Source of the DNA: Cinnamomum chago
Lineage: Eukaryota > Streptophyta > Magnoliopsida > Laurales > Lauraceae
Reading direction: 5' to 3'
Assembly (NCBI GenBank): GCA_038049695.1
Contig: CP142456.1
Location: forward strand, 68,723,922 to 68,787,921
DNA length: 64,000 nt
Under the pieces are notes generated by a model. That model made no database searches, was not told where the DNA came from, and saw nothing but the letters and a program-made list of their open reading frames with translations. Shown here piece after piece: positions 17,191 through 43,695 of this stretch; the first letter of the stretch is position 1, and every line of letters begins with the position of its first letter. Made by a program: the position numbers and the translations under genes.

Positions 17191-17851
17191 AGAACATGTA
17201 TCAATTCCAACAAAAGTACTCATATCCAAGAGATATAGACTTATTCTGTCTATACATCCCCTCCAACAGACAACATGAATAGAATGGAAATACACCCATC
17301 AAGCTTACAGAGGAAATTCTCTGTTAACTAAACACATGAAGCTCATCTTCTTTTCCAGTTTCATGGTTTCATGAACTATCTTACTTTTAATCTACCAAAA
17401 AATTATTTTCTTCAATCAAATCATGTAAAAATTCCTACAACAAACACAAAAGAAGTATAGGCTCATAATCTCTGTAACTTCATTCCAACAAACAACATAC
17501 ACAGAATACAAATCCACCCATAAATTGTACAAGAAGAGCTTCTCTGCTAAAGTAAACACTTCAAGCCTAAATTCTTCTCTAATTCCATGGTCATGACCCA
17601 TCTCATTTATGATCTAACAAGAACACTCCATATCCAACAAATTCAATCCTAATAAAGATCATCTAACAAACACCTACAAAAATACAAATACATCCCAGAG
17701 CTATAAACTTATCATCTCTATACACCATGGAGGATAGAAGCCAATTCATGAGCTGAATCTCTTTTCTTGGGGTGCCTGCAATGAGTTTCATGAGGATCCA
17801 AAGCCATGAAGGATGATTAAATCATCCCTCCATTAACCCCAATTCACCTCA

Positions 17852-18594
17852 TTAGCATATGACACAAGCGTTTGGATTCTCCTCTGCGCTATGCACAAAG
17901 TAATGTGTGGTGTAGTGGGGATTATATGCCTGGTAGGCCTTGACAAGGTCTGCAATCTGGTCTTTTTCTGACTTCTTATCATCCTTTTTGGGTTCCTCCT
18001 TCTTGGGTTCCTCTTTCTTAGGCTCTTCCTTCTTCTTCTCTTCCTTAGCAGGTCCCACAGAGACGATTTCCGGGCGGCAGAGCTTGCGAAGTTTGCTCAC
18101 AATGGTGACCGGATCCACATCTCCAGTTACTGTCAATTTCTTCTCCTTCATGTCCATGGAGATCGATTCAAGCCCTACAAAATCAGAAAAGCAAAAGAAA
18201 CATTCAACAATCAGTGATCTTCAGAATAAATCACCCACTTGAGGAAGAATTGAATTCCGAATTCTCAATAAAGGCTACCTTCAAGGCTTGAGACAGCCTT
18301 CATAGCTTTCTGTTTATCTCTGTCATCATGTATATTCAACTTCAATACTATTTTCTGCAATAACCCAACAAGAATCAGACATCAGACACCATCAGAACCA
18401 TAAGAAAAAAGAAACCCAGATAGAAATTCAAAATTAAAAAGCCCCCAGAAGTGCATGTAGATGAGATTTAGATTGAAAAGACCCAAAACCTAGAGGTAGG
18501 GAAAAGACCCAACAAGAATTATGCTCTTGTAAAGGCTAAAAAAGGAAGAAAACACCCATCAAAAGCTATATTATGGAAGAAATCGTACCTTCAT
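17852..18594 (-). CDS. Heavy-metal-associated isoprenylated plant protein (HIPP), copy A
   Basis: Three exons: 18594-18589 (ATG AAG only), 18354-18279, 18174-17852, giving 134 residues; all junctions are GT-AG. Residues 1-70 form an HMA-like fold (starting [13 protein letters not shown], later [17 protein letters not shown]). The usual metal-binding MxCxxC loop is replaced by [11 protein letters not shown], so classic Cys-based metal binding is unlikely. A lysine/glutamate linker with EEPKK repeats follows at about 72-95, then a conserved tail ending CVIC, a CaaX box for prenylation. HIPPs act at membranes or the nucleus in metal homeostasis and stress responses; a specific role cannot be assigned here. 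The two-codon first exon is common in this family. The 5' leader is a (TTC)n/(ATC)n pyrimidine tract. Copy B encodes an identical protein. Confidence 0.93.
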
Positions 18595-18900
18595 TTCTTC
18601 CCAAACTCGATAGAAAGAATAAGAAGATGATGATGATGATGAAGAAGAAGAAGAAGAAGCAGTGAGAGTTTGATGGGAAAAGAAGGAGCTGCTGATGGAT
18701 TTAAACAAAGCAGAGAGGGAGAGAGAGGAGGAGGAGATATCGAAGAAGGATCCGGAGAGGGTTGGATTTAAGAAGGAAGGAGGAAGATGCAATTGGCTGC
18801 TTTTTTGACCTTTCCGCGTCGTCTTCAATGAAGACCGACGGAGTCAACAAGTCAACAGATCGCGTCTGCCACAATAGGGAGCTGATTTTGAAATGTGAAT

Positions 18901-18936
18901 CCCCGCCCCCCCCCCCCCCCCCGCCCCCCCCCCCCC
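18901..18936 (+). repeat. Poly-C tract upstream of HIPP copy A
   Basis: 36 bases made of C runs broken only by two G. It lies about 310 bp upstream of the HIPP A start, so the HIPP coding strand reads as long G runs. Block B has only a short C-rich stretch at the matching place (about 33294-33304) and about 60 bp of extra sequence next to it. It could be a real expansion, a G-quadruplex former, or a sequencing artefact. Confidence 0.85.
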
Positions 18937-19940
18937 AAAAAGCCCCCCTAAAAGTTCCCGTGAGTGGGGGCATATGCGCCAAATTTCACTTTAACAGGAA
19001 TTGGTTATACCGCAAAATTGACCACATTATTAATGAAATGATCAACACATTCTTATCATTATTTAGTCGCATGCATTAATTACGTTATCAATAATGCATC
19101 ATCTTAACTCCTTTGATTTGACAGTGCTAGCATTACTATTTTATTTTAATTTAATCGAATTGTCCAATCCATTCAGATCAACTAAACGCATTAAATCCTT
19201 GATGTGTGAATTGAAGGGAGAGGATTAGGAATAAAGGATCGGATTGATTAAGCGGGGTCTAGGTGGGCCTCATGGGTTATCTTGCATAGGGCATCCGCCC
19301 AGGGCCAGGCAATGCTAGTACATATTTTTATAGGGCAATTTTTTTCATGTAGGCCTCTTAAGGCCAGGCGTGTGTGGAATTACATTCCCACCTTTACTGG
19401 AAGGCCTGTGGTTTTTCCCTCATGACTTGGCATACGGATTTCGGCTGACCAGAGAAGAAAATTGGCTACATAGTTCACATTTATATATTCAAATGGGTTA
19501 AGCGGTTATTTAACTAAGTTCCATCATATCTTCACTTGTCTTGAATTTATTAAGCTCGAGTTCTATCGTGAAATTGCTGAGCTTCGGCTAGGCCCATATT
19601 TGCATAAGTTAATTGGGCTAAGTTCTGGCTCTGCCCATGAGCTAAAGAATGTAAGAATTTTGACCGTATGGCTACTTTAAGATCTGACATTTAGCCGTCA
19701 ACGTTTGAAAAAGATTTGTAGATCTATTTGTAAAAAGAAGAGGGCTAAGAAGATAGGAAATGAAGGAAAACCGTGAAATAACCTATAGATGTAGGATAAT
19801 ATCATACGAATGGTGTTGGAGAATTTTTTTTTAAATTTCAACAGTTGATAAACGAATGTTAGATATTAGGACAGTCGTACTAGAAAAATACCAAACAGTC
19901 CAGCTAAGAGAAGCAAGCCAAGCCGAGCCTAGCTGTCTCC

Positions 19941-20120
19941 TTTTTTTTTTTTCCTGCTATCGTAGGGTTCCAACCCTTTGGACTAGACTAATCTCTCCGA
20001 GCCCATAGGGAACCCTGATAAACTCCATTGTAGCCTCAGTGTAGTAGCAAAGTTTTAAACACACAACCTCTTTCGAGTACAAACCGTGATCCTAAGCTAA
20101 CTGAGTTATCCCTTGGGATT
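19941..20120 (-). mobile_element. tRNA-derived SINE, reverse orientation (shared with block B)
   Basis: Poly-T then TGCTATCGTAGGGTTCCAAC, GACTAATCTC, GTTTTAAACACACAACCTC and TAAGCTAACTGAGTTATCCC, the reverse-complement layout of the family. The matching copy in block B is 34621-34800, so insertion preceded the duplication. Flanks CTGTCTCC and CTGTTCTCC suggest a TSD. Confidence 0.72.
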
Positions 20121-20512
20121 AACCGTCTGTTCTCCTTGTTAAAAGCCCCAGTTGGAGAGTCCTTAAAAGTAGAGTGTGAGTGTGAGGTAGAGAATGAGAT
20201 CACAAGGATTGGGATTTGGGATGGTTGCTTTCATGGACCCCAGTCGGCACAACCAGATGCGGCTTTGTGACATATTCTCCTTTATTTAAATAGCTATTCT
20301 GACGTCCTCATCACCATGAAAACTGCTTGCCAACTTGTACCACATACATTTTTAGGGATAAAAAAAGAAGTGAATCCAGACTTTCCTAATCCTAACACTG
20401 GGCCTCATCATGGGTCTGATGACAATCATGATCATGATCAGCTGATCCAAGTGATTCAATTGCTATCAATAAGATGGACTATTATTACGAAGGGACCAGC
20501 CTTAGGAAGCCT

Positions 20513-20697
20513 AGAACACAATGTTTTTTTTTTTTTTTTAATTTATAATGGAAGGTGTCCCTCACCTTTTGATCAGAATAATCCCTACATCTCTTATAGT
20601 CCAGGTGTGGTAGTGTAGTTTCAAAATCTCAACCTTCGGATGCAATCCGAAGTCCTTGGCCAACTGAGCTACGGGCTTTAGGGTTTAGAATACAATG
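20513..20697 (-). mobile_element. tRNA-derived SINE, reverse orientation, 11-bp TSD
   Basis: Element 20524-20686 flanked by AGAACACAATG and AGAATACAATG. Poly-T head, then GATCAGAATAATCCC, TAGTGTAGTTTCAAAATC and TTGGCCAACTGAGCTAC. Shared with block B (35208-35367). Confidence 0.75.
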
Positions 20698-21998
20698 TTA
20701 AACACAAGTATTATCTGATTAGTAGTGTTCTTGGGCTTAAATCCATCTAAATGAATATGCTTTTGACAGTTATGATGCGACTTGCATCTCACCCCCTCAC
20801 ATAAAAGTTAAATCGGGGTTGAGATTTTTGGGCGTGGGCGTGGGCGTGGGCTTAGGCCTTAATTTTAAACAATGGAGTGTGAGTCACTCTCTTTTGTCTT
20901 CTTTGTTTTAGTAATCAGGCTATTTTACAGATGATAAGTTTGGCTGTGAAATCCACTGTGATTGGCCAGGTGCAAAAATAAGACAAGACAATTGTTTTTT
21001 GGCTGTTTAGGTTTATTAAATGTCCATTTAGATGCCAAAAAACCTCTCACAGTACAAATTTGAATTGACATGTACATTTTTTTTTTAATCAGACAAAATC
21101 TTTTGATTGGAGGTCCTTGGAGTGTAATGTAGAGACTAGCACAATAACCCATGGGAGCACAGGTAGGTCCAAACATTGCAAACAAGATATTCATATATAA
21201 AGAAACCAAACGATTGCAAAGAAAATCAAATTAACATAAAAGGGGACATAAAAATAAAAGAAAATTAACTCATAGATTCAATATCTTTTAACGAGAACTT
21301 CCAAATAATCTTCACGGGCTAGTCTTTTTCCTAAATTTAGGAGAGCTAAGTGGTATAGAATGAGAATAGAAGAATTGTGGTAGAAAGATAACAGAAGAGG
21401 TGAGGTACAAAGAGAGATTTTTAGAAAAGAAAAGGTGGAATATTGGAAATTGGAGAGTGGAAGTGAGCGGTTTCATGAGATAAAAATATATGGTTGCGTA
21501 AGGGAAGTAGTGGGGTGAGAATGTGGAGCATTTGAAAAAAAGAAAAAGAAAAAAGGGGATAACTTCCGGTCAAAATTGCAACTAACATTTAAAATTAAAG
21601 TCAAAACCCTTGGCTTTAATAAATTATAACTAGCATAATAACTCGTGCTGAGCATGGATATAGCCAACATTACACTCTAAATATTCATGCATTAAAAAAT
21701 TATAGTTTTTAGAAAGAAAACGAAAGAAAAGAAGAGGTTATGAGTACCTATTTATGTAATCCGAGAGCTAGTGGGGTAGAAAGGAAATGTGAGAATTGGA
21801 GTAGAAAGGAATTAGAGCTGGAGTAGAAAGGGGATGACAGAGTTTGGATGAAAACAAAGTCTTTACTAAAGAAGAAAGAAAGGGAGAAAAAAAAGTGGAG
21901 AGTAGATAAGTGGTTTTGATAAAGAAATAAAGTAGATAGTTGCATGAGATAGAAGTGAGGGAGAACATGAAAGATTTTGAAAATAAAAAACAATATAA

Positions 21999-23025
21999 CT
22001 AATTCCTAGAGCTACACATGGGTGGTTCGGATCGGTTTAACACTAAAACCAACAACCAAACCGAACATGTTGGTTTTTTCATTAACCAATCCGATCCGAG
22101 CGATGGAGAGGGATTAAACCGAACCAAACTGAACCAAACGGTTCGGTCGGTTAAACTGTTGTTTTTTATTTTATTTTATTTTTAAAATCAAACATTGAAA
22201 ATTTCAAAATGATGATGCCCAGTCCTTTGCATTTATTCCAACGTTTAGTGCAAACATAAAAATCCAACATTTCAGACTGGACTAAACGCATATAAAAAAT
22301 AATTCTAATCCAAAAAGAGAGTTTGAACTAAACACAAGTGCACAAAAAAAAAAAAAAAAAAAAAAACAACAACAACAACTTGCAGTGAAACATTCATTCC
22401 ACATGATACCATTTAGAATTACAATAGAATAATTATTACTGTCAAGAAAAGTCACACACAGACAGAATCTGTATCAGAACCCACTATATTTTTTAGAAAT
22501 GAATTTTTCTTAACACATTGGTTAGGTGAGACCAAAACTAACCATCAAAAGGCTAGGCTTTACCGGCTTTTCTAATATTCTCAAAAGTGCAGCCTTCTGA
22601 TAAAAACTTCATTGAAACGAGGTAGGAATTATGATGGAAGGAAAACACTATGTACAATAATCCCTCCATCTGCAATGAAGTATCAAAAAGTATTTGAGAG
22701 ATTAGAGGAAATGCAGTTGAGGCAGTGTTGACTGTTGAATTAATGTGAGAATGGAGTTGTGGAATGTAAGTATGAAAGTAGTAAAAAATGAAACACTAAG
22801 GCTAAAATAGTAAAAAAGCAATACTTAAGTTACTACATACGGTCGGTTCGGTTTAAGCGGTTAACCGTGGACTCAAACCGATAACCGACCGATGTAAGCA
22901 GTTTTTATGAATTTCAAATCGTTAACCGAACCGATCTACTATAAACTGATCTAAACCGCCCGGTTCGGTCGGTTCAGTCTTGTTTTGTGGTGATACTGAA
23001 TTTTTTATGTAGCCCTACTAATTCC
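21999..23025. mobile_element. hAT-type non-autonomous element, about 1 kb, TSD CTAATTCC
   Basis: Element 22007-23017 starts TAGAGCTACACATGGG; the right end reverse complement is TAGGGCTACATAAAAAATTC. Exact 8-bp repeats CTAATTCC flank it (21999-22006, 23018-23025). GGTTCGGT/ACCGAACC words are packed in both subterminal regions, as in hAT elements where the transposase binds such repeats. No transposase. Block B counterpart 36683-37676. Confidence 0.78.
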
Positions 23026-23076
23026 TGCCAAAATTATAACCAACAATCAAAAATTGAGTCCAAAACATTATCTTTA

Positions 23077-23103
23077 ATATAATATAATATAATATAATAT
23101 AAT
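23077..23103 (+). repeat. (TATAA)n microsatellite, longer in block A than in B
   Basis: Five units of a TATAA repeat here, against about one and a half at the matching place in block B (37738-37747): a repeat-length change since the duplication. Confidence 0.85.
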
Positions 23104-24390
23104 TGTAAGGCCTTGTTTGGTATCTCTACTCTTTTTTTTTGATAGACCCATCAAAATAGAGCCATAAAAAAAACTGCTACAATCAAAATGAGTGTTTGAT
23201 AATACATGGATCTATGTTAAATAGACTTTTTTATATCAATAGCTGAAAGTTTTTCACAAGTTTCTTGAGATTTAAAAGGTATCAAGCCTTGGTTATTGAC
23301 TCCTTGGCCGTGTTCAGCCTTCAAAAGAGATCTAACGGTTTGGATCTTGTGTTTGGAGCTCACATAATCCAAAAAAATATTATTAAATGGTTCATATGTT
23401 TTTGCTCATATGTCAAGTTTGGGGATGACGTAATGGCTAAAATTTGGTTCTATGGATGGACTTGATCTTAAGAACGGCTTCAACGGTTTAGATTTACTAT
23501 CCCAAAAATAATAAAAAAAATAATATTGCTTATGGACAAATCCAAAATTGTGCATGATACATCAATGGTTGATATTGTTTTAAAAATACATCAAGATCCA
23601 CAAAGTATCAAGCCTTGAAAATTGACGACATAGCCGTGTTCGGCCTTCCAAAGAGATCTAAATGTTTGGATCTTGTGTTTGGGACCTACAGATTTTAGAA
23701 TTTTTTTTTCCAATGAATCTTTTTTTTTTTTGCACATATCTTGAGCTTGGTGATGGACCAATGACTAAAATTTGGTTTCATACCTGTGTTTGGCCTAATA
23801 CATTGTCAAATGCCTCTATTCACAACATCTCTACCCCCTTTAGAGATTTAGAAGAAGAGAGACAAAAAATAGTGATGTCAAACCGGAGCTAAGTTGAAGA
23901 AGTGGAGCTCTTAACCGGACTTACATATTGAAAGTCTCAACTGTTGAAAATAAACCCTCTCAATGTATGAGGTATCCCTAAATTTTATCCCTATAGAAGT
24001 CGGTCCCACTGTAAGATTAACCGTTGGACAAAAAACGTGATTAGTAAATATACATAAGATTGAGTTGGTTATGCTTTAACTAAACCATCAATCTTTATGT
24101 GGGACCAATTCTTGTTGAAATAAAATTGGGGAATACCCCATTCAGTGTGAAGGCATTTATTTTGATGGCCACGAAGTGCAATGCATTGGCTTCCTTGTGG
24201 AGTTCCACTCGAACTACTCAAGATTTCTATAAGTCAGAGAGGTCGGGGACTCTTGTCACTACTCCAATCCATCTTCTCATCGTCCAAAAGACCACCGAAT
24301 TATAGGTTTTCTCATTGCAATACAGCTGTGAAAATCTGGATTCTCCACGTAGATGATGATATTATAACTTTATTTGAATCATCATAGTTA

Positions 24391-24803
24391 CCTACTTCTA
24401 GGGTTATAAATGAGTCAGTTCTGGTTCGGGTCCATGGTGGACTTGGAACCGGAACCGTTAAGGTGAAAAGGTAGAACCGGATCCGGACCCAAAACTGTTT
24501 TTGGAACCGGTTTCTCAGCTCGAGAGCTGGAACTGGAACCATATATGATACGGGTCCGAATCCTGGTCTATGTAGAGAATGATATTAAAAAAAAACATGA
24601 TTTTTAGGAGAAATTTTTGAAAATTGAAGTAATATGTCGGGTATCGGGTCTACGGGTATGAGCCAAAGTGGAATTGAACCTGGAACCATTTATTTATCGG
24701 GGCCTAAATAAAGACCCAGACTCGGTTTTTAGCGGGTCAGAACCTCCGGGTAATCGGAGAATCGGGGACCATTTATATCCCAATCTACATCCCAACCTAC
24801 TTC
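24391..24803 (+). mobile_element. hAT-type element, TAGGGTTGTAAA family (shared with block B)
   Basis: Element 24399-24795 begins TAGGGTTATAAATGAGTC, with exact 8-bp repeats CCTACTTC on both sides. The right end ATTTATATCCCAA is slightly extended relative to block B, where CATTTACATCCTAA directly precedes CCTACTTC. Confidence 0.75.
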
Positions 24804-24995
24804 GCAATTCAATGAATTTGCATTCGAGGTTGCAACTCATTATTCTCGAGTTAGCTTGATTAATAAATTTGATAGAGTAGGTTCATCTGATTGATCGCCT
24901 TTCAATTCATCTAATTTGAAGCTTGAGTTTGACAAGTTCGATGCAGTTAAGTCCATCACTAGGGCCACGTCTGAAATACAAACCACTCTAAATAA

Positions 24996-27123
24996 TTGTT
25001 ATTCTTTACATTTACACTGGGTGAAATTCTACTTCAATAGAGTTGGGCTCACAATCAGATTAATTACATGCAAATCATGGTTAAAATAAGGACTAAAGTG
25101 CGATTCCATGAGTTATTGATGATCAATCTTAAGTCCCAGTCGAATTAGATATGGATTAGGACAACACATAAAGCACAGTGCTTTTGGGGGCTTGTAGTTT
25201 TAGGTAGGCACCACTTAGTGAACTACTGGTGGGCAGTTCACAAATAGTTTGAGAACTGAACTGTGAATAGTTCAAAACGAGTTCAAAGCTCTTCTGAATG
25301 AAAGTAACTATAATTCGAGTTGTGAAGCAGTTCACAAATTCGAGTTTTAATAAGCTCTTCCTCGTCAATCTCTGTCATGTCAAGAAGGTTGCAACCTATG
25401 GTTTGGACCGTTAGGCCATGGGTTCGAGATATGGCACCAACAAACAAACAAAAAATAAGCTCCTCAAAATTAGGTCATGGGTTCCAGATATGGCACCAAC
25501 AAACAAACAAAAAATAAGCTCTTCAAAACATAGACCCGTTTCCGAGCCAAGCCCAACACGGGCCTTGATTGCATGGCCCAAGCACAGCCCACCTTCCAAT
25601 TTAGCCCATGGCGCGGCCTAGGCTGGGCTTTCTAATCACTTATTTGGGTAAATGAGTCACTAAACTACATGTATTATTTAATCATGCTGGTCCGGATCTC
25701 GCTTCAAGCTTTATATCAGTTAATCCCCAAGCCCAAACCATATATGTAACTGCCCTGAAATCTAGATCCAGGCCCAGCCCAAGTACAAAAACCCAAGGCC
25801 AAAACTCGGCCCAAAGTAGGCTAGGCATCAGTCAGGCCCGGTGGGTCATGTGTGGAAGGAGTTATTTATGGGTCCCATAGTAGATGATTCCAAAAATCTC
25901 CTAGAGTTATTTATTTATATATTTTTGGGGAAATCTCAAATAAAACCTTAATCTTTTGTCTTATTTAAAAAAAGGATACGAGTTTCAAAAAAATTCAAAG
26001 TAGGGAATATGTTTTCCAGTAACTTGTCAATTAGGGACAACCGGCCATTTCAAAGTTATTTTCTCGTAATTGTTTCCCTCAATTTTTTTTAAATACTCAA
26101 AGTGCCCTTAATCGAAATAAAACCCCTCATTCACTTTTGTCATTTTCTCCTCATTTCCTTCATTAGCATTCCTCACAGTGATTGATGGCAACCAATGTCT
26201 CCCCACAATCAATAGCATATAGTGGCTACCGGAAATATGTTATGGCTTTAAATAAAGGGTAATTTGGGTGTTTTGAGAAATCGAGGGAAAAAGTCGCCAG
26301 AAAATACCTTTAAATAGGCAGATGTCCTTAATTGAGAACTTACTAGAAAACTTAAGCACTATTTTGTGAAGTTTTGAAACTTGTGTTATTTTTTAAAATA
26401 AGGTTTAAGAGTTAAAGACCTTTTTATTGGAGATCTCTATGCCAAGAGTTAGGAAACACATATGCCGGTCTTAATGATCTTAGAGGAGGGCCATGTTAAC
26501 TGTGCTACTAACAATGTTCTAATAATATTAAACAAGACATTTGATAGGGTACATAAAAGTTCACTGGCTATACATGGAGAACTTTAAGGTCTATCAATGT
26601 GAGAAAAAAAAACCAGGTAAAATGAATATTAGTGACAGTCCAATCTAATGCTACAGAATGAATGATTAAAATAAAAATTTTATCATGTTCACCAATTTTT
26701 TACGATTTGGCATATGAGTTTTTTTTTATTGACCTAATTTTTGTAAAAGATATACATATCATAAAGTCTTCTTTTTGTTTATAAGCCATGGTTGGTTAGT
26801 CTGCCGTTTAACTAATTCGCATTAGAGTATGCAATTTGTAAAACAAGACTTAACTTGATCAGAAAAAATTCGATAATATAGGTTTATTTCATTCAGTTTT
26901 TAATTCGTTCGAATTTTAGTTCAAATTCCACCAATTCAATGAACTAATTTGTGTATGTTCTTTTGACAAATCCGTAAGTGGATCTCACATCTAAAATTAA
27001 AACCACTCAAAACAAGTGTACCTTCTTATATTGATTGAGATAAATCATACTTATTCAAAGTTGGGCCCATCATATGATTGATCACGCTTAAAATGCACAG
27101 ATAAAATTAAAAATAAAAACCAA
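24996..27123. other. Non-coding part of block A
   Basis: No gene recognised. It includes a local direct repeat of about 65 bp at 25420-25535 (GGTTCGAGATATGGCACCAAC, then CAAACAAACAAAAAATAAGC, twice), also present in block B at 40788-40905. Confidence 0.5.
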
Positions 27124-27317
27124 TATAAAAACGGGGCATTCGTCGACTAGTCCCTGAACATTGCACTTTATTGTCTTAGGTCCACAATCTTTTTTCATAG
27201 TGTGATAGGTCTTTTTTTTAAATTTGAAGACATAATATGTCTAATTTACCCTTTCTTCAAAATCATATCCCATGATTAGTGGGATATGCCATTAATAATG
27301 GTCAACTAACATTTAAT

Positions 27318-27775
27318 TAGCCAAGTAAATTTCAAAACATCCAAATAAATTTCAAAAAACATAAATAAATTTCAAAAGACGAAAATAAAATAAAAAACGC
27401 AAATAAATCCAAAAAATACAAATAAATTCGAAAGAACGCAAATAAAATTCAAAAAATGCAATAATTTCAAAAAACGCAATAAATTTCAAAACAAGGCAGA
27501 GAAATTTAAAAAGATGCAAATAAATTTCAAAATATCCAAATAAGTTTCAAAAAATATAAATAAATTTCAAAATATGAAAATCAATTTAAAAAGACGCAAA
27601 TAAATCTCAAAAGATCCAAATAAATTTAAAAAAAAAAATTAAATAAATTTCAAAAGATGAAAATCAATTTCAAAAAACTGAAATAAATTTCAAAAAGTGT
27701 AAATAAATTTCGAAGGACGCAAATAAAATTAAAAAATGCAAATAAATTTAAAAAAATACAAATATATTTGCCAAA
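27318..27775 (+). repeat. AT-rich minisatellite, core CAAATAAATTTCAAAA
   Basis: About 25 imperfect units of 17-19 bp, core AAATAAATTTCAAAA with a short variable link (ATGC, ACGC, GACG). Non-coding. Confidence 0.8.
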
Positions 27776-27899
27776 ACTAAGATAACTCAATTTTTCAAAT
27801 TTCAGAAAAATTTACCAAAAACTAAAGTATTTTTGCTAAAACTCAGTTAAATTTATTTTAAAAAATGCAAATAAATTTTAAAAGAACAGCCTGAGTTCA

Positions 27900-28205
27900 G
27901 TTCAAAAACTCAGTTAAAATTTTCCAAATGGAGATAAATTTGTCAGAAAGTCAACTATATTTTTCGAAAACTAAAATAAATTTTCGAAAAACTAAGATTG
28001 ATTTTTCCAGAACTTGGATAAATTTGTTTCAGAACTCAGATAAATTTGCCAAAAACTCAGATAGATTTGTCCAGAACTCAGATAAATTTATCCAGAACTC
28101 AGATAAATTTGTTCCAAAAGTTAGATAAATAGCAAAAACTCAAATAGATTTGTACAGAACTCAGATAAATTTGATAAAAAATACAGAACTCAGATAAATT
28201 TGACT
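27900..28205 (+). repeat. Minisatellite, core AACTCAGATAAATTTG
   Basis: About twelve imperfect 19-22-bp units of the type CAGAACTCAGATAAATTTG. It follows the AAATAAATTTC minisatellite and shares its AATAAATTT word, so the two may be related. A reading frame through it (27928-28128) is a by-product of the repeat. Confidence 0.78.
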
Positions 28206-31440: not shown

Positions 31441-31442
<2 letters not shown>

Positions 31443-31497: not shown

Positions 31498-31499
<2 letters not shown>

Positions 31500-31542
31500 G
31501 CTACTTGAAATATATAACTGTTGGCACTAGAAGATTTTTTAT

Positions 31543-31870
31543 TTATTTATTTTTCTTGAAAGGTATCATAACGATTTCATTAAAAAAATCAAATAAAAGG
31601 ACGGAAACACCGTCCGTTATAAATATAAAAATAATAATAATAATAATAATAATAAAAGAAGGACAAATAGAAAGATGGGCCCTCTAAGGTATAAGAGCTT
31701 TATACCGGATACAAAAAATAAAAATAAAAATAAAATAAAATAAAAAAAGATTACATGGGAACTACAACGAAAGGCAAGGTTCTGTCCACCCCTAGTTTAG
31801 CCAAAGAGTCCGCAAGAGAATTCGCTGACCTCCCGACATGCCTAAACACCACCATGAAGTGAAGAATCCA
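31543..31870 (-). mobile_element. 5'-truncated LINE, C-terminal RNase H fragment and 3' tail
   Basis: On the minus strand a frame from about 31868 to a stop at 31751 reads RHVGRSANSLADSLAKLGVD and on to VVVPM. This matches the C-terminal end of the RNase H domain of plant non-LTR retrotransposons (HVxRxxNxxADxLAK motif). A 3' UTR with A-rich simple repeats follows and ends in an AATAAATAAATAAAAAA tail at about 31543-31560. The element is cut at its 5' side exactly where block B begins. No clear TSD. Confidence 0.72.
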
Positions 31871-31871
31871 A

Positions 31872-31900
31872 GGATTTGGGATGGTTGCTTTCATGGACCC
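31872..31900 (+). other. 29-bp filler at the duplication junction
   Basis: GGATTTGGGATGGTTGCTTT plus TCATGGACCC is identical to 20212-20240 in block A (and its partner at about 34890-34918), but here it is joined to sequence equivalent to 17521. It overlaps the block B start by the shared bases CCC(A). It looks like template-copied filler from repair. Confidence 0.85.
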
Positions 31901-32232
31901 ATAAATTGTACAAGAGCAGCTTCTCTGCTAAAGTAAACACTTCAAGCCTAAATTCTTCTCTAATTCCATGGTCATGAACCATCTCATTTATGATCTAACA
32001 AGAACACTCCATATCCAACAAATTCAATCCTAATAAAGATCATCTAACAAACACCTACAAAAATACAAATACATCCCAGAGCTATAAACTTATCATCTCT
32101 ATACACCATGGAGGATAGAAGCCAATTCATGAGCTGAATCTCTTTTCTTGGGGTGCCTGCAATGAGTTTCATGAGGATCCAAAGCCATGAAGGATGATTA
32201 AATCATCCCTCCATTAACCCCAATTCACCTCA

Positions 32233-32975
32233 TTAGCATATGACACAAGCGTTTGGATTCTCCTCTGCGCTATGCACAAAGTAATGTGTGGTGTAGTGGG
32301 GATTATATGCCTGGTAGGCCTTGACAAGGTCTGCAATCTGGTCTTTTTCTGACTTCTTATCATCCTTTTTGGGTTCCTCCTTCTTGGGTTCCTCTTTCTT
32401 AGGCTCTTCCTTCTTCTTCTCTTCCTTAGCAGGTCCCACAGAGACGATTTCCGGGCGGCAGAGCTTGCGAAGTTTGCTCACAATGGTGACCGGATCCACA
32501 TCTCCAGTTACTGTCAATTTCTTCTCCTTCATGTCCATGGAGATCGATTCAAGCCCTACAAAATCAGAAAAGCAAAAGAAACATTCAACAATCAGTGATC
32601 TTCAGAATAAATCACCCACTTGAGGAAGAATTGAATTCCGAATTCTCAATAAAGGCTACCTTCAAGGCTTGAGACAGCCTTCATAGCTTTCTGTTTATCT
32701 CTGTCATCATGTATATTCAACTTCAATACTATTTTCTGCAATAACCCAACAAGAATCAGACATCAGACACCATCAGAATCATAAGAAAAAAGAAACCCAG
32801 ATAGAAATTCAAAATTAAAAAGCCCCCAGAAGTGCATGTAGATGAGATTTCGATTGAATAGACCCAAAAGCTAGAGGTAGGGAAAAGACCCAACAAGAAT
32901 TATGCTCTTGTAAAGGCTAAAAAAGGAAGAAAACACCCATCAAAAGCTATATTATGGAAGAAATCGTACCTTCAT
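32233..32975 (-). CDS. Heavy-metal-associated isoprenylated plant protein (HIPP), copy B
   Basis: Exons 32975-32970, 32735-32660 and 32555-32233, at a constant offset of 14381 from copy A. The 134-residue protein is the same residue for residue: HMA-like domain without MxCxxC, EEPKK-repeat linker, C-terminal CVIC CaaX box. Introns and the 5' leader differ at a few positions (for example a shorter GAAGAA run), so the copies are recent but not an artefact of one sequence read twice. The 5' flank loses similarity beyond about 33290, where copy A has the poly-C run, so promoters may differ. The 3' flank is intact for about 330 bp to the junction at 31.9 kb, after which B borders the LINE rather than the native sequence. 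Confidence 0.93.
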
Positions 32976-33877
32976 TTCTTCCCAAACTCGATAGAAAGAA
33001 TAAGAAGATGATGATGATGATGAAGAAGAAGAAGAAGAAGTGAGAGTTTGAAGGGAAAAGGAGGAGCTGCTGATGGATTTAAACAAAGCAGAGAGGGAGA
33101 GAGAGGAGGAGATATCGAAGAAGGAACCGGAAAGGTTGCATTTAAGAAGGAGAAGGAAGGAGGAAGATGCAATTGGCTGCTTTTTTGACCCTTTCCGCGT
33201 CGTCCTCTACGAAGACCGACGAAGTCAACAAGTCAACAGATCGCGTCTGCCACAATAGGGAGCTGATTTTGAAATGTGAATTCCATTCCTTGCCCCCCGC
33301 CCCAAATTCGCGTGAGTGGGGCATGTGGAACTTTACATTAAGGCCCGCCTCTTGATAATCCAGACCGCTCAAAATAAGTGGCATCTCTTTCAGTGGTTCA
33401 TCTCTAAATTTCACTTTAATAGAAGTTGATTCCACTATAAAATTGACCATATTATTAACGGAAGGATCGACACATTCTTATCATTATTTAGTCAAATCCA
33501 TTAATTACGTTATCAATCATGCATCATCCTAACCCCTTTGATTTGACAGTGCTAGCATCACTATTTTATTTTGATTTAATCGAATTGTTCAGTCCATTCA
33601 AATCAACTAAACGCATTAAATCCGTGACGTGTGGATTGAAGGGAGAGGATTAGGAATAAAGGATCGGATTGATTAAGCGGGGTCTAGGTGGGCCTCATGG
33701 GTTATCTTGCATGGGGCATCCGCCCAGGGCCAGGCAATGTTAGTACATATTTTTATAGGGCAATTTTTTTCATGTAGGCCTCTTAAGGCCAGGCGTGTAT
33801 GGAAATTACATGCCCACCTTTACTAGAAGGCCTGTGGTTTTTCCCTTATGACTCTGGCATACGGATTTTGGCTGACC

Positions 33878-34134
33878 AGAGAAGAAAATTGGTAACCCCA
33901 AGGGGTTGGTCGAGTGGTCAGGACCACGGTTCCTCCCTCTTCCGGAGCTAGAGGTCTTGGTATCGATCCCCGGTTCCCCCCTCTTCAGGAGCCGAAGGTT
34001 GAGTTTACTTGTGCTACCACCTAGGGGCTATAGGGTTTTACCCGGCTTCTCTCTGGGCCCGGAGGGAATAGTCCAGCCCAAAGGGTTGGGAACCCTCCGA
34101 TAGCAAAAAAAAAAAAAAAAGAGAAGAAAATTGG
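33878..34134 (+). mobile_element. Young tRNA-derived SINE with perfect 15-bp TSD, block B only
   Basis: Element 33893-34119 flanked by AGAGAAGAAAATTGG on both sides (33878-33892, 34120-34134); block A keeps the empty site with a single copy. A box TGGTCGAGTGG at 33907-33917, B-box-like GGTATCGATCCC at 33959-33970, poly-A tail of 16. This is the longer subtype with two CCCTCTTC-containing segments, like the one at 59.2 kb. Confidence 0.93.
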
Positions 34135-34620
34135 CTACATAGTTCACATTTATATATTCAAATGGGTTAAGCGGTTATTTAATTAAGGTCCATCATATCT
34201 TCACTTGTCTTGAATTTATTAAGCTCGAGTTCTATCGTGAAATCGCTGAGCTTCAGCTAGCCCATATTTGCATAAGCTAATTGGGCTAAGTTCTGGCTCT
34301 GCCCATGAGCTAAAGAATGTAAGAATTTTGTCCGTATGGCTACTTTAAGATCTGACATTTAGCAGTCAACCACTGAAGTTTGAAAAAGATTCGTAGATCT
34401 ATTTGTAAAAAGAAGGGGGCTAAGAAGATAGGAAATGAAGGAAAACCGTGAAATATCCTACAGATGTAGGATAATATCACATGAACGGTGCTGTAGAATT
34501 TTTTTTTTTTTTTAACTTTAACTGTTGATAAACAAACGTCAGATCTTAGGACAGTCGTACTAGAAAAATACCAAACAGTCCAGCTGAGAGAAGTAGGCTA
34601 AGCCGAGCCTAGATGTCTCC

Positions 34621-34800
34621 TTTTTTTTTTCCCTGCTATCGTAGGGTTTCCAACCCTTTAGACTTGACTAATCTCTCCGAGCCTATATGGAACCCAGATA
34701 AACTCCATTGTAGCCTCAGTATAGTAGCAAAGTTTCGAACGCACAACCTCTTTTTAGTGTAAACCGTGGTCCTAAGTCTACTGAATTACCCTTGAGATTA
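34621..34800 (-). mobile_element. tRNA-derived SINE, partner of 19941-20120
   Basis: Same element and position as in block A, with scattered mismatches (for example TTTTTAGTGTAAACCGTGG), so inherited through the duplication. Confidence 0.72.
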
Positions 34801-35207
34801 GCAGTCTCTTCTCCCTGTTGAAAGCCCTACTTGGAGAGTCCGTAAAAGTAGAGTGTGAGTCTGACGTTGGAATGAGATCACACGGATTGGGATTTGGGAT
34901 GGTTGCTTTCATGGACCCCAGTCGGCACAACCAGATGCGGCTTTGTGACATATTCTCCTTTATTTAAATAGCTATTCTGACGTCCTCATCACCATGAAAA
35001 CTGCTTGCCAACTTGTACCACATACATTTTTAGGGATTAAAAAAGAAGTGAACCCAGACTTTCCTAATCCTAAAACTGGGCCTCATCATGGGTCAGATGA
35101 CAAACATGATCATGATCATGATCAGCTGATCCAAGTGATTCAATTGCTATCAATAAGATGGACTATTATTACGAAGGGACCAGCCTTAGGAAGCCTAGAA
35201 CACAATG

Positions 35208-35367
35208 TTTTTTTTTTTTAAATTTATAACGGAAGGTGTCCCTCACCTTTCGATCAGAATAATCCCTACATCTCTTATAGTCCAGGTGTGGTAGTGTAGT
35301 TTCAAAATCTCAACTTCCGGATGCAATCCGAGGTCCTCGGCCAACTGAGTTACGGGCTTTAGGGTTT
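35208..35367 (-). mobile_element. tRNA-derived SINE, partner of 20524-20686
   Basis: Same TSD pair (AGAACACAATG / AGAATACAATG) and body as the block A copy. Confidence 0.75.
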
Positions 35368-36674
35368 AGAATACAATGTTAAACACAAGTATTATCTGAT
35401 TGGTAGTGTTCTTGGGCTTAAATCCATCTAAATGAATATGCTTTTGACAGTTATGATGCGACTTGCATCTCACCCCCTCACATAAAAGTTAAATCGGGGT
35501 TGAGATTTTTGGGCGTGGGCCTGGGCTTAGGCCTTAATTTTAAATAATGGAGTGTGAGTCAGTCTCTTTTGTCTTCTTTGTTTTCGTAATCAGGCTATTT
35601 TACAGATGATAAGTTTGGCTGTGAAATCCACTGTGATTGGCCAGGTGCTAAAATAAGAAAAGACAATTGTGTTTTGGCTGTTTAGGTTTATTAAATGTCC
35701 ATTTGGATGCCAAAAAACCTCCCACAGTACAAATTTGAATTGACCTGTACATTTTTTTTTTTAATCAGACAAAATCTTTTGATTGGAGGTCCTTGGAGTG
35801 TAATGTAGAGACTAGCACAATAACCCATGGGAGCACAGGTAGGTCCAAACATTGCAAACAAGATATTCATATATAAAGAAACTAAACGATTGCAAAGAAA
35901 ATCAAATTAACATAAAAGGGGACATAAAAATAAAAGAAAATTAACTCATAAATTCAATATCTTTTAACGAGAACTTCCAAATAATCTTCACGGGCTAGTC
36001 TTTTTCTTAAATTTAGGAGAGCTAAGTGGTATAGAATGAGAATAGAAGAATTGTGGTAGAAAGATAACAGAAGAGGTGAGGTACAAAGAGAGTTTTTTAG
36101 AAAAGAAAAGGTGGAATATTGGAAATTGGAGATTGGAAGTGAGTGGTTTCATGAGATAAAAACATATGGTTGCGTAAGGGAAGTAGTGGGGTGAGAATGT
36201 GGAGCATTTGAAAAAAAGAAAAGAAAAAAGGGGATAACTTCCGGTTCAAAATTGCAACTAACATTTAAAATTAAAGTCAAAACCCTTGGCTTTAATAAAT
36301 TATAACCAGCATAATAACTCGTGCTGAGCATGGATATAGCCAACATTACACTCTAAATATTCATGCATTAAAAAATTATAGTTTTTAGAAAGAAAACGAA
36401 AGAAAAGAAGAGGTTATGAGTACCTATTTATGTAATTCGAGAGCTAGTGGGGTAGAAAGGAAATGTGAGAATTGGAGTAGAAAGAAATAAGAGCTGGAGT
36501 AGAAAGGGGTTGACAGAGTTTGGATGAAAACAAAGTCTTTACTAAAGAAGGAAGAAAGGGAGAAAAAAAAGTGGAGAGTAGATAAGTGGTTTTGATAAAG
36601 AAATAAAGTAGATAGTTGCATGAGATAGAAGTGGGAGAGAACATGAAAGATTTTGAAAATAAAAAACAATATAA

Positions 36675-37684
36675 CTAATTCCTAGAGCTACACATGGGTG
36701 GTTCGGATCAGTTTAACACTAAAACCAACAACCAAACCGAACATGTTAGTTTTTTCATTAACCAATCCGATCCGAGCGATGGAGAGGGCTTAAATCGAAC
36801 CAAACTGAACCAAACGGTTTGGTCGGTTAAACTGTTGTTTTTTATTTTATTTTATTTTTAAAATCAAACATTAAAAATTTCAAAATGATGATGCCCCGTC
36901 CTTTGCATTTATTCCAATGTTTAGTGCAAACATAAAAATCCAACATTTCAGACTGGACTAAACGCATATAAAAAATAATTCTACTCCAAAAAGAGAGTTT
37001 GGACTAAACACAAGCGCACAAAAAAAAAAAAAAAAAACAACAACAACTTGCAGTGAAACATTCATTCCACATGATACCATTTGGAATTACAATAGAATAA
37101 TTGTTAATGTCAAGAAAAGTCACACACAAACGGAATCTGTATCAGAACCTACTATATTTTTCAAAAATGAATGTTTCTTAACACATTGGATAGGTGAGAC
37201 CAAAACTAACCATCAAAAGGCTAGGCTTTACCGGCTTTTCTAATATTCTCAAAAGTGCAGCCTTCTGATAAAAACTTCATTGAAACGAGGTAGGAATTAT
37301 GATGGAAGGAAAACACTATGTACAATAATCCCTCCATCTGCAATGAAGTATCAAAAAGTATTTGAGAGATTAGAGGAGATGCAGTTGAGGCAGTGTTGAC
37401 TGTTGAATTAATGTGAGAATGGAGTTGTGGAATGTAAGTATGAAAGTAGTAAAAAATGAAACACTAAGGCTAAAATAGTAAAAAAACAATACTTAAGTTA
37501 CTACATACGGTCGGTTTGGTTTAAGTGGTTAACCATGGGCTCAAACCGATAACCGACCGATGTAAGCAGTTTTTATGAATTTCAAATCGTTAACCGAACC
37601 GATCTACTATAAACTGATCTAAACTGCCCGGTTCGGTCCGGTTTTGTGGTGATACTGGATTTTTTGTGCAATCCTACTAATTCC
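36675..37684. mobile_element. hAT-type element, partner of 22007-23017
   Basis: Element 36683-37676 with the same CTAATTCC TSD. The right end is slightly shortened (GGTTCGGTCCGG) relative to block A. Confidence 0.78.
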
Positions 37685-37942
37685 TGCCAAAATTATAACC
37701 AACAATAAAAAATTGAGTCCAAAACCATTATCTTTAATATAATATAATTGTAAGGCCTTGTTTGGTATCTCTAATCTTTTTTTGATAGACCCATCAAAAT
37801 AGAGCCATAAAAAAAGCTACTACAATCAAAATGAGTGTTTGATAATACAAGGATCTATATTAAATAGACTTTTTTATATCAATAGCTGAAAGTTTTTCAC
37901 AAGTTTCTTGAGATTTAAAAGGTATCAAGCCTTGGATATTGA

Positions 37943-38573
37943 CTCCTTGGTAGGGTTGTAAACGGGTCGGTTCCGGTCCGGGTCCAGGGTGGACCCGGAA
38001 CCGTTTAGTAAGAGGGTGAACCGGACCCGGACCCGGATCGGAACCAGGAAACTGGTTCCGGAACCAGTTCCGATAATTTTAATGGGAACCGGAACCGTTT
38101 GCGATGCGGGTCTGGTTCCGGTTCCGGGTATGGTTCCGGTTCTGGTTAAAAAAAGTAATAAAAGGGAATGTTGGGGTTCATATGTCAAGGTCTGGCAAGC
38201 TAATAATAAAAAAAAGAAAAGAAACAAAGCCTCAAGAAGTTATTTTTACACTTGATTTAATCGCCTTTATAACATCAGAGTCAACAATTTAGTCACAGCA
38301 AGGACCGCATAAGGTTAGAAACTTAGAATGAGGGATTCCCATACAGATACTAGTATTTAGGTTAGAGTATATTAGGTCGGGTCCGGGTCCACGGGTCTGA
38401 GCTACTGTGGTTCTGGAACCGGACCCGTTTAGGTAACGGTTCCAAAAAAAGGATCCGGAACCGGAACCATTTACTTATCGGGACCAAAATAAGGACCCAG
38501 ACCCGGAACCTAACGGGTCGGAACCTTCGGATAATCGGAGAATCGGGGACCCATTTACAACCCTACTCATTGG
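37943..38573 (+). mobile_element. Intact hAT-type non-autonomous element, block B only
   Basis: Element 37951-38565 (615 bp) with 18-bp inverted ends TAGGGTTGTAAACGGGTC and (reverse complement of right end) TAGGGTTGTAAATGGGTC. Flanks CTCCTTGG (37943-37950) and CTCATTGG (38566-38573) match at 7 of 8; block A has the single, uninterrupted site GACTCCTTGGCCGTG. Interior full of GGTTCCGGTTCCGG words. The best-preserved member of this family in the window. Frames through it are by-products of the repeats. Confidence 0.9.
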
Positions 38574-39755
38574 CCATGTTCAGCCTTCAAAAGAGATCTA
38601 ACGGTTTGGATCTTGTGTTCGGGGCTCACATAATCGAAAAAAATATTATTAAATGGTTCATATTTTTTTGCTCATATGTCAAGTTTGGGGATGACGTATT
38701 GGCTAAAATCTGGTTCTATGGATGGACTTGATCTTAAGAACGGTTTCAACGGTTTAGATTTACTATCCCAAAAATAATAAAAAAATAAAAAAATATTATT
38801 GCTTATGGACAAATCCAAAATTGTGCATGATACATCAATGATTGATATTGTTTTAAAAATATATCAAGATCCACAAAGTAGCAAGCCTTGAAAATTGACG
38901 ACATAGCCGTGTTCGGCCTTCCAAAGAGATCTAAATGTTTGGATCTTGTGTTTGGGGCCTACAAATTTAAAAAAAAAAATTCCAATGAATCTTTTTTTTT
39001 GCACATATCTCGAGATTGGTGATGGACCAGTGACTAAAATTTGGTCTCATACCTGTGTTTGGCCTTGTGAACATTTCTAATGGTTTGGATTTTGATTTAC
39101 ACTCTTAGATTAAAAAAAAAAAAAAACTAGGGTGTTGTGGCCTAAAATCACTGTAATACATTGTCAAATGCCTCTATTCACAACATCTTTACCCGCTTTA
39201 GAGATTTAGAAAAAGAGAGACAAAAAAATAGTGATGTCAAACCGGAGCTAAGTTGAAGAAGTGGAGCTCTTAACCGGACTTACATATTGAAAGTCTCAAC
39301 TGTTGAAAATAAACCCTCTAGTATGAGGTATCCCTAAATTTTATCCCAATAGAAGTTAGTCTCACTGTAAGATTAACCGTTGGACAAAAAACGTGATTAG
39401 TAAATATACATAAGATTGAGTTGGTTATGCTTTAACTAAACCATCAATCTTTATGTGGGACCAACTCTTGTTGAAATAAAATTGGGGAATACCCCCAATC
39501 AGTGTGAATGCATTTATTTTGATGGCCACGAATTGCAATGCATTGGCTTCCTTTTGGAGTTCCACTCGAACTACTCAAGATTTCTATAAGTCAGAGAGGA
39601 CGGGGACTCTCGTCACTACTACAATCCATCTTCTCATCGTCCAAAAGACCACCGAGTTATAGGTCTTCTCATTGCAATCCAGCTGTGAAAATCTGGATTC
39701 TCCACGTAGATGATGATATTATAACTTTATTTGAATCATCATAGTTATCTACTTT

Positions 39756-40149
39756 TAGGGTTGTAAATGGGTCAGTTCTGGTTCGGGTCCTTGGTGGACT
39801 CGGAACCGGAACCGTTAAGGTGAAAAGGTGGAACTGGATCGAGACCCAAAACCGTTTTCGGAACCGGTTTCTCAGCTCCGGAGCTGGAACTAGAACCATA
39901 TATGATATAGGTTCGGATCTGGGTCTATGTAGAGAATGATATTAAAAAAAAACATAATTTTTAGGAGAAATTTTCGAAAATTGAGGTAATATGTCGGGTA
40001 TTGGGTTTACGGGCCCGAGCCAAGGTGGAACTGAACCTGGAACCATTTATTTGTCGGGGCCTAAATAAGGACCCAGATCCGGTTTTTAGCGGGTCGGAAC
40101 CTCCGGGTAATCGGAGAATAAATGACCCATTTACATCCTAACCTACTTC
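39756..40149 (+). mobile_element. hAT-type element, partner of 24399-24795
   Basis: Element 39756-40141 from TAGGGTTGTAAATGGGTC to CATTTACATCCTAA, followed by CCTACTTC; the left TSD has decayed to TCTACTTT. Pre-dates the duplication. Confidence 0.75.
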
Positions 40150-43100
40150 GCAATTCAATGAATTTGCATTCGAGGTTGCAACTCGTTATTCTCGAGTTAG
40201 CTTGATTAATAAATTCGATAGAGTAGGTTCATCTGATTGATCGCCTTTCAATTCATCTAATTTGAAGCTTGAGTTTGACAAGTTCAATGAACTAATTCAT
40301 TGGTGCCCATGCATTTAAGTCCATCACTAGGCCCACGTCTGAAATACAAACTACTCTAAATAATTGTTATTCTTTACATTTACACTAGGTGAAATTCTAC
40401 TTCAATAGAGTTGGGCTCACAATCAGATTAATTACATGCAAATCATGGTTAAAATAAGGACTAAAGTGCGATTCCATGAGTTATTGATGATCAATCTTAA
40501 GTCCCAGTCGAATTAGATATGGATTAGGACAACACATAAAGCACAGTGCTTTTGGGGGCTTGTAGTTTTAGGTAGGCACCACTTAGTGAACTACTGTTGG
40601 GTAGTTCACAAATAGTTTGAGAACTGAACTGTGAATAGTTCAAAAAGAGTTCAAAGCTCTTCTGTATGAAAGTAACTATAATTCGAGTTGTGAAGCAGTT
40701 CACAAATTCGAGTTTTAATAAGCTCTTCCTCGTCAATCTCTGTCATGTCAAGATGGTTGCAACCTATGGTTTGGACCATTAGGCCATGGGTTCCAGATAT
40801 GGCACCAACAAACAAACAAAAAATAAGCTCTTCAAAATTAGGTCATGGGTTCCAGATATGGCACCAACAAACAAACAAAAAATAAGCTCTTCAAAACATA
40901 GACCCGTTTCCGAGCCAAGCCCAACACGGGCCTTGATTGGATGGCCCAAGCACAGCCCACCTTCCAATTTAGTCCATGGCGCGGCCTAGGCTGGGCTTTC
41001 TAATCACTTATTTGGTTAAATGAGTCACTAAACTACATGTATTATTTAATCAAGCTGGTCCGGATCTCGCTTCAAGCTTTATATCAGTTAATCCCCAAGC
41101 CCAAACCATATATGTAACTGCCCTGAAATCTAGATCCAGGCCCAGCCCAAGTACTAAAACCCAAGGCCAAAACTCGGCCCAAAGTAGGCTAGGCATCAGT
41201 CAGGCCCGGTGGGTCATGTGTGGAAGGAGTTATTTATGGGTCCCATAGTAGATGATTCCAAAAATCTCCTAGAGTTATTTATTTATATATTTTTGGGGAA
41301 ATCTCAAATAAAACCTTAATCTTTTGTCTTATTTAAAAAAAGGATATGAGTTTCAAAAAAATTCAAAGTAGGGAATATGTTTTCCAGTAACTTGTCAATT
41401 AGGGACAACCGGCCATTCAAAGTTATTTTCTCGTAATTGTTTCCCTCAATTTTTTTAAAATACTCAAAGTGCCCTTAATTGAAATAAAACCCCTCATTCA
41501 CTTTTGTCATTTTCTCCTCATTTCCTTCACTAGCATTCCTCACAATGATAGATGGCAACCAATGTCTCTCCACAATCAATAGCATATGGTGGCTACCGGA
41601 AATATATTATGGCTTTAAATAAAGGGTAATTTGGGTGTTTTGAGAAATCGAGGGAAAAAGTCGCCATAAAATACCTTTAAATAGGCAGATGTCCTTAATT
41701 GAGAACTTACTAAAAAACTTAAGCACTATTTTGTGAAGTTTTGAAACTTATGTTATTTTTTAAAATAAGGTTTAAGAGTTAAAGACCTTTTTATTGGAGA
41801 TCTCTATGCCAAGAGTTAGGAAACACATATGCCGGTCTTAATGATCTTAGAGGAGGGCCCTGTTGACTGTGCTACTAAAAATGTTCTAATAATATTAAAC
41901 AAGACACTTGATAGGCTACATAAAAGTTCACTGGCTATACATGGAGAACTTTAAGGTCTATCAATGTGAGAAAAAAAAAATCAGGTAAAATGAATGTTAG
42001 TGACCGTCCAATCTAATGCTACAGAATGAATGATTAAAATAATTTTTTTATCATGTTCACCAATTTTTTACGATTAGGCATATGAGTTTTTTTTTATTGA
42101 CCTAATTTTTGTAAAAGATATACATATCATAAAGTCTTCTTTTTGTTTATAAGCCATGGTTGGTTAGTCTGCCGTTTAACTAATTCGCATTAGAGTATGC
42201 AATTTGTAAAACAAGACTTAATTTGATCAGAAAAAATTCGATAATATAGGTTTATTTCATTCAGTTTTTAATTCGTTCGAATTTTAGTTCAAATTCCACC
42301 AATTCAATGAACTAATTTGTGTATGTTCTTTCGACAAATCCGTAAGTGGATCTCACATCTAAAATTAAAACCACTCAAAACAAGTGTACCTTCTTATATT
42401 GATTGAGCCAAATCGTACTTATTCAAAGTTGGGCCCATCATATGATTGATCACGCTTAAAATGCACAGATAAAATTGAAAATAAAAACCAATATAAAAAA
42501 TCAGTCATCAAGTGAAAGGACTCTAATTAAAGTTAGATTGGACAAATACTAACAACAAACAGCTAAAAGTGCAATGCTTTTCAGCGGCTTGAATTTATTG
42601 AGTTGACATTGCTAATGGATTTAAATAAACACAATTCATAGATCAGTATGAGAAGTATTCAAACCAAGATGTTCGCATTAAACCCTGCTTAATAAAGAAG
42701 GTAACTAGTAGCCCAAAAGTAGTTTAGGGTATATAGATCCTCCTGCACAGGGTTGTCTATTTGGCACTTCCACGAGGGTATCCGACCCCTCAAAATGCTT
42801 GCAAAATGAGGGATTATGTTTTTCTTAAAATGCCCGAGGGGAATTAGACAAATTTTTTTAAGGCCCTCCAATTTGTGGGCGAGGTTTGGACAATACTAAG
42901 CCCAACCCAACCCTGACGCTCGAGGTTTGGACAATACTAAGCCCAACCCAACCCCGACCCTCTTATTTTTTTATTTTTTATTTTTTATCTATGTGGATTT
43001 ATTTGAACGCATGTGTGCAGTTATTTGAACATGTTTATTACTAGTGTGAGAGGCTCGGATATATTCAAATATAAAAGCAATATTTGTGTATATAAAAAAA

Positions 43101-43695
43101 ATATAAATAAAAAACATTAGAATCTAAATTTTTAAAAAATTGTAGAGGAAGCAAGGTGAGGGAAGGAGAAAGAAAAAGATAAAAGATTTGGACTGATTAT
43201 GTTGGCTCATAATGATATAGTGCTAATAATAATAATAATAATACTCACGTCTATATGCCTAATTTAATAATTCGGTATGGTCAATTGTCAAATGTATGGG
43301 GTTTATTATGTTTTCCAAAAAAAAAATTTATTTAATTTCTTTTCACGGTCAAATCTTAATTATACTTAATTAATGGTTAGTTATGCATGATCTAGGGTTG
43401 GCTAGATAGGATCGTGCCACCCATGGTCATATCATTATCACCTATCATAATTATCAACTAATTTAATTTAATAATTCACATACTTTACTAATTGAATCTT
43501 ATTATTGCATTAATTGAAATTCTCATGGAGTATAATTTGTATTTATGCTTGGTATTGCTTTAAGTCTCTACCTTTATTGTAAGGACCGTACTCCAAGAAA
43601 GTTTGTTAAGAGTTTTTAAACAAAGAGGATACTTAAGGAAAGAAAAAAATTCGAATAAATGTCTTGAGATAAGATATAATTACTAATTTCTAATT

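Follow-up and report, generated by a model that had tools for sequence, protein, structure and literature searches.

The stretch of DNA considered here, referred to as the window, comprises 64,000 nucleotides of the Cinnamomum chago genome (C6:68723922-68787921 in a 1.06-Gb, 14-contig assembly, where C6 is contig CP142456.1), and it contains, without any N, two direct copies of a block of about 12 kb, each of which carries a complete HIPP-like gene. The arrangement of these blocks, together with the sequences of the junctions that separate them, suggests that one non-homologous rearrangement in the germline probably made direct copies of two pieces of a 34.5-kb interval, the middle of which stayed in single copy. 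The fuller proposal, that a single germline event with at least three template switches produced a plant gene duplication of the kind termed duplication-normal-duplication (DUP-NML-DUP), which has since persisted, perhaps for millions of years, both HIPP-like copies remaining intact, is put forward a little more cautiously, as plausible and on balance preferred.

Arrangement and junctions of the duplicated pieces

Block A occupies positions 17516..30176 of the window (C6:68741437-68754097); its left end lies in its original context and its right end forms a new junction with the segment that follows. Block B, the second copy of A, occupies 31897..43662 and runs into the original right flank at 43663. 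The ends were taken from the junction sequences (BLAST carries B to 43665, and the junctions place its end at 43662), and they agree to within one base with the two direct blocks delimited in a first-pass annotation of this DNA. Self-comparison of the window finds the blocks to be direct copies about 96% alike over roughly 12 kb. That annotation was right to call the duplication direct, but it overlooked that the apparent spacer between the blocks, segment S (30177..31873), is itself a copy: S is a 1.7-kb duplicate of C6:68719585-68721256, and this parent, S0, lies about 20 kb to the left of A, outside the window. S carries an exon-like frame of a neighbouring gene on the minus strand, as well as motifs suggestive of a LINE-like remnant and of a fragment of a copia-like leader. 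Between 30177 and 31421, S and S0 differ at 16 of 1243 aligned bases, and at the LINE-like end (31496-31873) at 17 of 369, the GA repeat between 31421 and 31496 having been excluded from these counts. A genome search with 30180-31430 returned nine matches, among which S and S0 stand at 99-100%; one further match is a 70% relative on C7, and the remainder are an inverted match (79%) beside S0 and five short ones.

The stretch between S0 and A, here called M, is about 20.2 kb long, and its part within the window spans 1..17515. In the window and the roughly 20 kb on either side of it, to which the search was confined, no second copy of M was found. The interval from the start of S0 to the end of A measures 34,513 bp, of which the 20.2 kb of M is not represented in the second copy, and the net gain from the event is about 13.5 kb. 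The simple duplication of a 12-kb block envisaged in the first-pass annotation therefore gives way to a layout in which two pieces, S and A, have been duplicated in direct orientation around a copy-neutral middle, which is the DUP-NML-DUP layout.

At the junction between A and S the parent sequences share a single base (T), and the joint is nearly blunt. At the junction between S and B a patch of 29 bp (31872..31900, plus strand) is found, which has GG in common with the end of S and ACCC in common with the start of B, that is, two shared bases on the S side and four on the B side, and which contributes 23 net new bases (31874-31896). An identical 29-bp string lies on the plus strand inside A at 20212..20240, with its block-B copy at 34890-34918, and a search of the whole assembly finds exactly three exact matches to the string, in A, in B and at the junction, with none on the other strand and none for the reversed string used as a control. 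Because the string is confined to these places, the patch was most likely copied from within the block. Junction microhomology (1, 2 and 4 bases) and a templated insert, either of which would mark a DUP-NML-DUP duplication made by template switching, are present together.

Unequal crossing-over between flanking repeats, or non-allelic homologous recombination (NAHR), is the usual first model for direct duplications, and retroelement fragments do occur near S0, but the junctions contradict such an origin of the tandem copy, which is considered extremely improbable: at the junctions read, no long homologous repeats were found at the breakpoints, and the shared sequence amounts to one base at the first joint and to two and four bases plus the patch at the second. 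The notion that the block is a single gene-carrying transposon was rejected as unsupported. A genome search with the HIPP segment gave 11 matches, of which only these two copies reach at least 99%, and a 601-bp piece of the block occurs at full length in two places, the other 38 of 40 scored matches (from 441 candidates) being limited to its initial ~130 bp, which form a dispersed repeat. Reversed-ends Ac transposition in maize is reportedly a form of transposon-mediated direct duplication; at the two S junctions, the sole places checked, no transposon end was seen.

The favoured mechanism is serial template switching of the type known as fork stalling and template switching or microhomology-mediated break-induced replication (FoSTeS/MMBIR). 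Synthesis proceeding from left to right would have switched, at the end of A (window 30176), back by 34.5 kb to the start of S0 (C6:68719585), would have copied 1.7 kb of S0 before switching by way of the GG into 20212-20240 inside the block, where 29 bp were copied, and would then have switched by way of the ACCC from 20240 back to 17516, so that the whole block was recopied as B before the original right flank was entered. Three switches on one strand would be involved (30176 to S0, the end of S0 to 20212, and 20240 to 17516), and the copies would later have diverged, each gaining insertions of its own. We infer the single event and its enzymology from the observed extents, order and orientation of the pieces, the junction sequences, the match between patch and block, and the private insertions described below; S and B are tied to one history because the homology between A and B stops at both S junctions.

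Exactly the observed sequence is also predicted by a route in two steps, in which a 34.5-kb tandem duplication was formed by end joining (the joint between A and S, with its one shared base) and the 20.2 kb of M was later deleted, polymerase-theta-type repair leaving the 29-bp insert. This route is a serious possibility, though the less probable one. Templated insertions are regular in plants (in A. thaliana they reach ~35%), and inserts with over 20 consecutive copied bases arise now and then, according to the passages of PMC12426944 on such repair; the same passages, however, describe inserts that are generally shorter than 25 bp and templated from break-flanking sequence, whereas the present patch is 29 bp long and has its source 2.7 kb within one arm, and two independent events would be required. 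The single event is favoured because it needs fewer steps and because, by the standard of end joining in those passages, the patch is long and its source distant. Several points nevertheless weigh on the other side. One event, and a tandem duplication of 34.5 kb with later loss of M from the second copy, yield the same sequence; shared runs of one to four bases easily arise by chance; and S (16/1243) is less diverged from its parent than most of A is from B (351/9187), so that a single age requires local differences in rate or later conversion.

Divergence between the copies and the age of the event

Over 10651 aligned bases the Kimura two-parameter distance (K80) between A and B is 0.040. In the gene segment (17520-18640) the copies differ at 7 of 1121 bases (K80 0.0063), and over 18990-30177 they differ at 351 of 9187 (225 transitions and 126 transversions, K80 0.039), with sub-segments of the latter ranging from 0.02 to 0.09. 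Positions 18641-18989 contribute to neither of these two counts; within them, 18641-18920 shows 22 differences in 274 aligned bases, and 18921-18989 aligns poorly. Exclusion of CG and CHG sites reduced the spread of divergence, which still ran, segment by segment, from 0.005 to 0.058. Identity is unbroken for at most 800 bp (17598-18397), the next longest run being 209 bp, and nine gaps of at least 10 bp lie within the alignment, the largest being 1933, 623, 242 and 89 bp. Chance is excluded as the source of the likeness, because a direct repeat of 12 kb at about 96% is involved and only two of the 11 genome matches to the HIPP segment reach 99%. The alignment proposed in the first-pass annotation thus gives 0/405 differences in coding sequence, 4/338 in introns and a K80 of 0.039 over 18990-30177; the intronic and intergenic differences and the three or more block-specific indels reported there are confirmed, but the gulf between gene segment and remainder shows that the blocks are not near-identical over their whole length.

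Three of the gaps are insertions found in one copy only. Block A has gained 1933 bp (27124..29056), flanked by TATAAAAA repeats where the B site has a single TATAAAAA; within it, 27322-28180 is an AT-rich imperfect tandem array with units of 20 to 123 bp. Block B carries a 242-bp SINE-like insertion (33878..34119, plus strand) with a poly-A end and a perfect 15-bp target-site duplication AGAGAAGAAAATTGG that is single in A, and a relative of this element (82%) lies at 59199-59418. B also carries a 623-bp hAT-like insertion (37947..38569) with inverted ends TAGGGTTGTAAA and TTTACAACCCTA and an 8-bp target repeat, CTCCTTGG/CTCATTGG (one mismatch), of which A has a single copy. Both names are presumptive, resting on hallmarks of such elements rather than on a family search. 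In addition, B has two copies of a 41-bp unit that occurs once in A, and the 89-bp difference at 23795/39065 is either a loss from A or a gain in B. The private insertions fit two copies that have long been separate. A repeat family with members at 6809-7211, 16351-16655, 24388-24787, 39753-40138 and 38436-38571, and also in the fetched loci L026 and L030, was noted as well; its members partly match the 623-bp insert and have similar ends.

These observations bear on whether the duplication is real, as the first-pass annotation maintained, or is one locus assembled twice. A real duplication is well supported, though not proven, because the private insertions lie between target-site repeats with a single site in the other copy, and because the blocks, in a window that has no N, are separated by another duplicated piece and the templated patch of 29 bp; the duplication is very probably genuine. 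A false (haplotypic) duplication, in which two alleles were assembled in succession and the second allele lacked M, would accommodate the transposon insertions, which can also be allelic, but it is very unlikely. It would have to account for a templated patch at the gap and uninterrupted sequence, neither M nor the flanks were found a second time in the window and the roughly 20 kb to each side of it, and an intergenic divergence of about 4% with three private insertions is high for alleles.

The low divergence of the gene segment raises the question of whether gene conversion has homogenised the HIPP-like segment since the duplication. The 800-bp identical run, set against a next longest of 209 bp, and the contrast of 7/1121 with 351/9187 led this explanation of the run to be weighed seriously. 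It was then lowered, and is now regarded as unlikely, because the introns (4/338) and the 3' flank (3/332), with 7 differences in 670 bases (entered as 669), diverge about as S does (16/1243; Fisher p 0.83); the coding part is strongly constrained, and constraint together with a slow genic rate suffices. A reading with two ages, one for S and the HIPP-like gene and another for the rest of A and B, was set aside, since the homology between A and B starts and stops at the S junctions and both classes of divergence stand side by side within S itself (16/1243, and 17/369 in its LINE-like part), which is an argument rather than proof. Because the homology stops at these joints, a single age with faster change in intergenic, repeat-rich DNA is preferred.

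The duplication was described at first as young, which holds only in a relative sense, divergence being ~1.2-1.3% in the introns and S and ~4% in intergenic DNA. With substitution rates of 7e-9, 1.3e-8 and 2e-9 per site per year, and as arithmetic only, K of 0.012-0.013 corresponds to ~0.5-3.3 million years and K of 0.039 to ~1.5-10 million years.

The HIPP-like gene and the neighbouring gene

The gene in block A lies on the minus strand at 17852..18594 (coding exons 18589-18594, 18279-18354 and 17852-18174) and that in block B, also on the minus strand, at 32233..32975 (32970-32975, 32660-32735 and 32233-32555), according to a three-exon model inferred from splice signals and homology. Both coding sequences are complete and identical at 405 of 405 bases, which bears out the earlier claim of a complete gene with the same protein in each block, although the gene is better termed HIPP-like than HIPP. 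The protein of 134 aa contains an HMA domain (PF00403, E 3.3e-10, 40.6 bits against a Pfam cut-off of 24.8) and ends in both copies in the CaaX box CVIC. No CxxC metal-binding pair was found in the HMA domain, the first strand of which has no cysteine pair, and the pair is also missing in all four of the relatives in which exon 2 was recovered (six relatives were matched). In the relevant passages of PMC12294528 a CxxC pair in the HMA domain is a criterion for HIPP, and the name "HIPP-like" was chosen because this metal site is missing; for the same reason the finding is silent on metal handling.

Relative to its counterpart on C7, the gene has a synonymous divergence (Ks) of 1.12 and a nonsynonymous divergence (Ka) of 0.13, so the protein has long been constrained and the A/B pair is far younger than the split from C7. 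Other related clusters lie at C6:12.97-13.11 Mb (three places) and C3:121.23-121.25 Mb (two places). At L023:3520-3852 (C6:13.04 Mb) a HIPP-like relative has an in-frame stop near its end, and one member of the cluster there may thus have decayed.

Upstream of the two genes the blocks have diverged: the sequence is poorly alignable at ~18900-18990, B has the SINE-like insertion at 33878-34119, and A has a 36-bp, mostly C tract (18901-18936), ~310 bp upstream of the start codon, that has no equivalent in B. It cannot therefore be taken for granted that both copies yield the same output, and the one-step doubling of HIPP dosage put forward in the first-pass annotation is only a possible outcome. 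As read from the sequence, the event yields one more HIPP-like gene, intact and preceded by a different upstream region, and in addition duplicates part of the neighbouring gene.

The exon-like frame in S0 belongs to a gene that extends to the left from near window position 1600, of which S is a fragment only. Its C7 counterpart is collinear with it over several exon-like stretches. The frames in S, in S0 and at window 158-739 have no Pfam match of their own; a VIT-family match (PF01988, E 1.6e-9) does occur on C7, in a same-strand frame lying some 6 kb further on, and the neighbouring gene may accordingly be a VIT-domain gene if that frame is part of its counterpart. On C7 the relative of the S gene (~58.372-58.376 Mb) and the HIPP-like relative (58.277 Mb) occur in one place each, with matching order and orientation, and for this reason S0-M-A is likely the older arrangement and the second S and second A would be additions. 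To the left of S0 (from C6:68719585 leftward; L028, L027) the C6 copy of the neighbouring gene yields to copia-like frames, whereas the C7 counterpart continues to the VIT1-domain frame; the C6 gene may be either broken or just stretched. An inverted copy (79%, ~86 bp; L028:5591-5684 against window 30439-30527) of the copia-like leader within S abuts the left breakpoint of S0, and to the left of it L028 is filled by minus-strand copia-like frames (RVT_2, Pol_BBD). Explanations by template switching often appeal to inverted repeats close to a breakpoint.

Elsewhere in the window, a 93-bp unit is repeated 3.7 times in a C-rich stretch at 4409-4752 and contains the telomere-like motif AAACCCTAAA, and an open frame at 50148-50708 encodes an Ovate-family protein of 186 aa (PF04844, E 8.2e-24).

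Comparison with known rearrangements

Tandem gene pairs are commonly ascribed to unequal crossing-over, and here the surviving joints reveal the route by which one arose: a piece of the neighbouring gene, a 29-bp patch matching the interior of the block, and then the whole block again. The locus illustrates cleanly how HMA/CaaX gene clusters can begin, and also that what looks like a spacer within a tandem pair can belong to the duplication event. If the favoured reading is true, the locus is a base-resolved fossil, and it indicates that tandem gene pairs can originate by replication-based rearrangement instead of unequal crossing-over. Human disease provides a known class with this layout of two pieces and a templated patch; the event is of an ordinary kind with an unusually readable history, and no claim is made that plant examples are missing from print.

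The closest parallel is a human PLP1 DUP-NML-DUP case of the same layout, for which the relevant passages of PMC6902434 give templated inserts of 38 and 182 bp. There, as here, two direct duplications flank a copy-neutral stretch with the distal end joined to the proximal end, and short templated junction inserts accompany the PLP1 rearrangements in some individuals. Unlike those rearrangements, the present one lies on a plant chromosome, is of kilobase scale, has accumulated 1-4% divergence and private insertions, and is seen in a single assembly. The patch resembles the polymerase-theta templated insertions treated in the corresponding passages of PMC12426944 in being a short insert from nearby sequence with few shared bases on each side, and differs from them in that its source lies 2.7 kb from the breakpoint and the net gain is ~13.5 kb. 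In the maize HIPP family, nine of 66 genes are tandem duplicates, according to the passages of PMC12294528 that count such pairs, and the present locus is like them in presenting an HMA/CaaX gene as neighbouring copies; unlike in those passages, the junctions are here resolved to the base.

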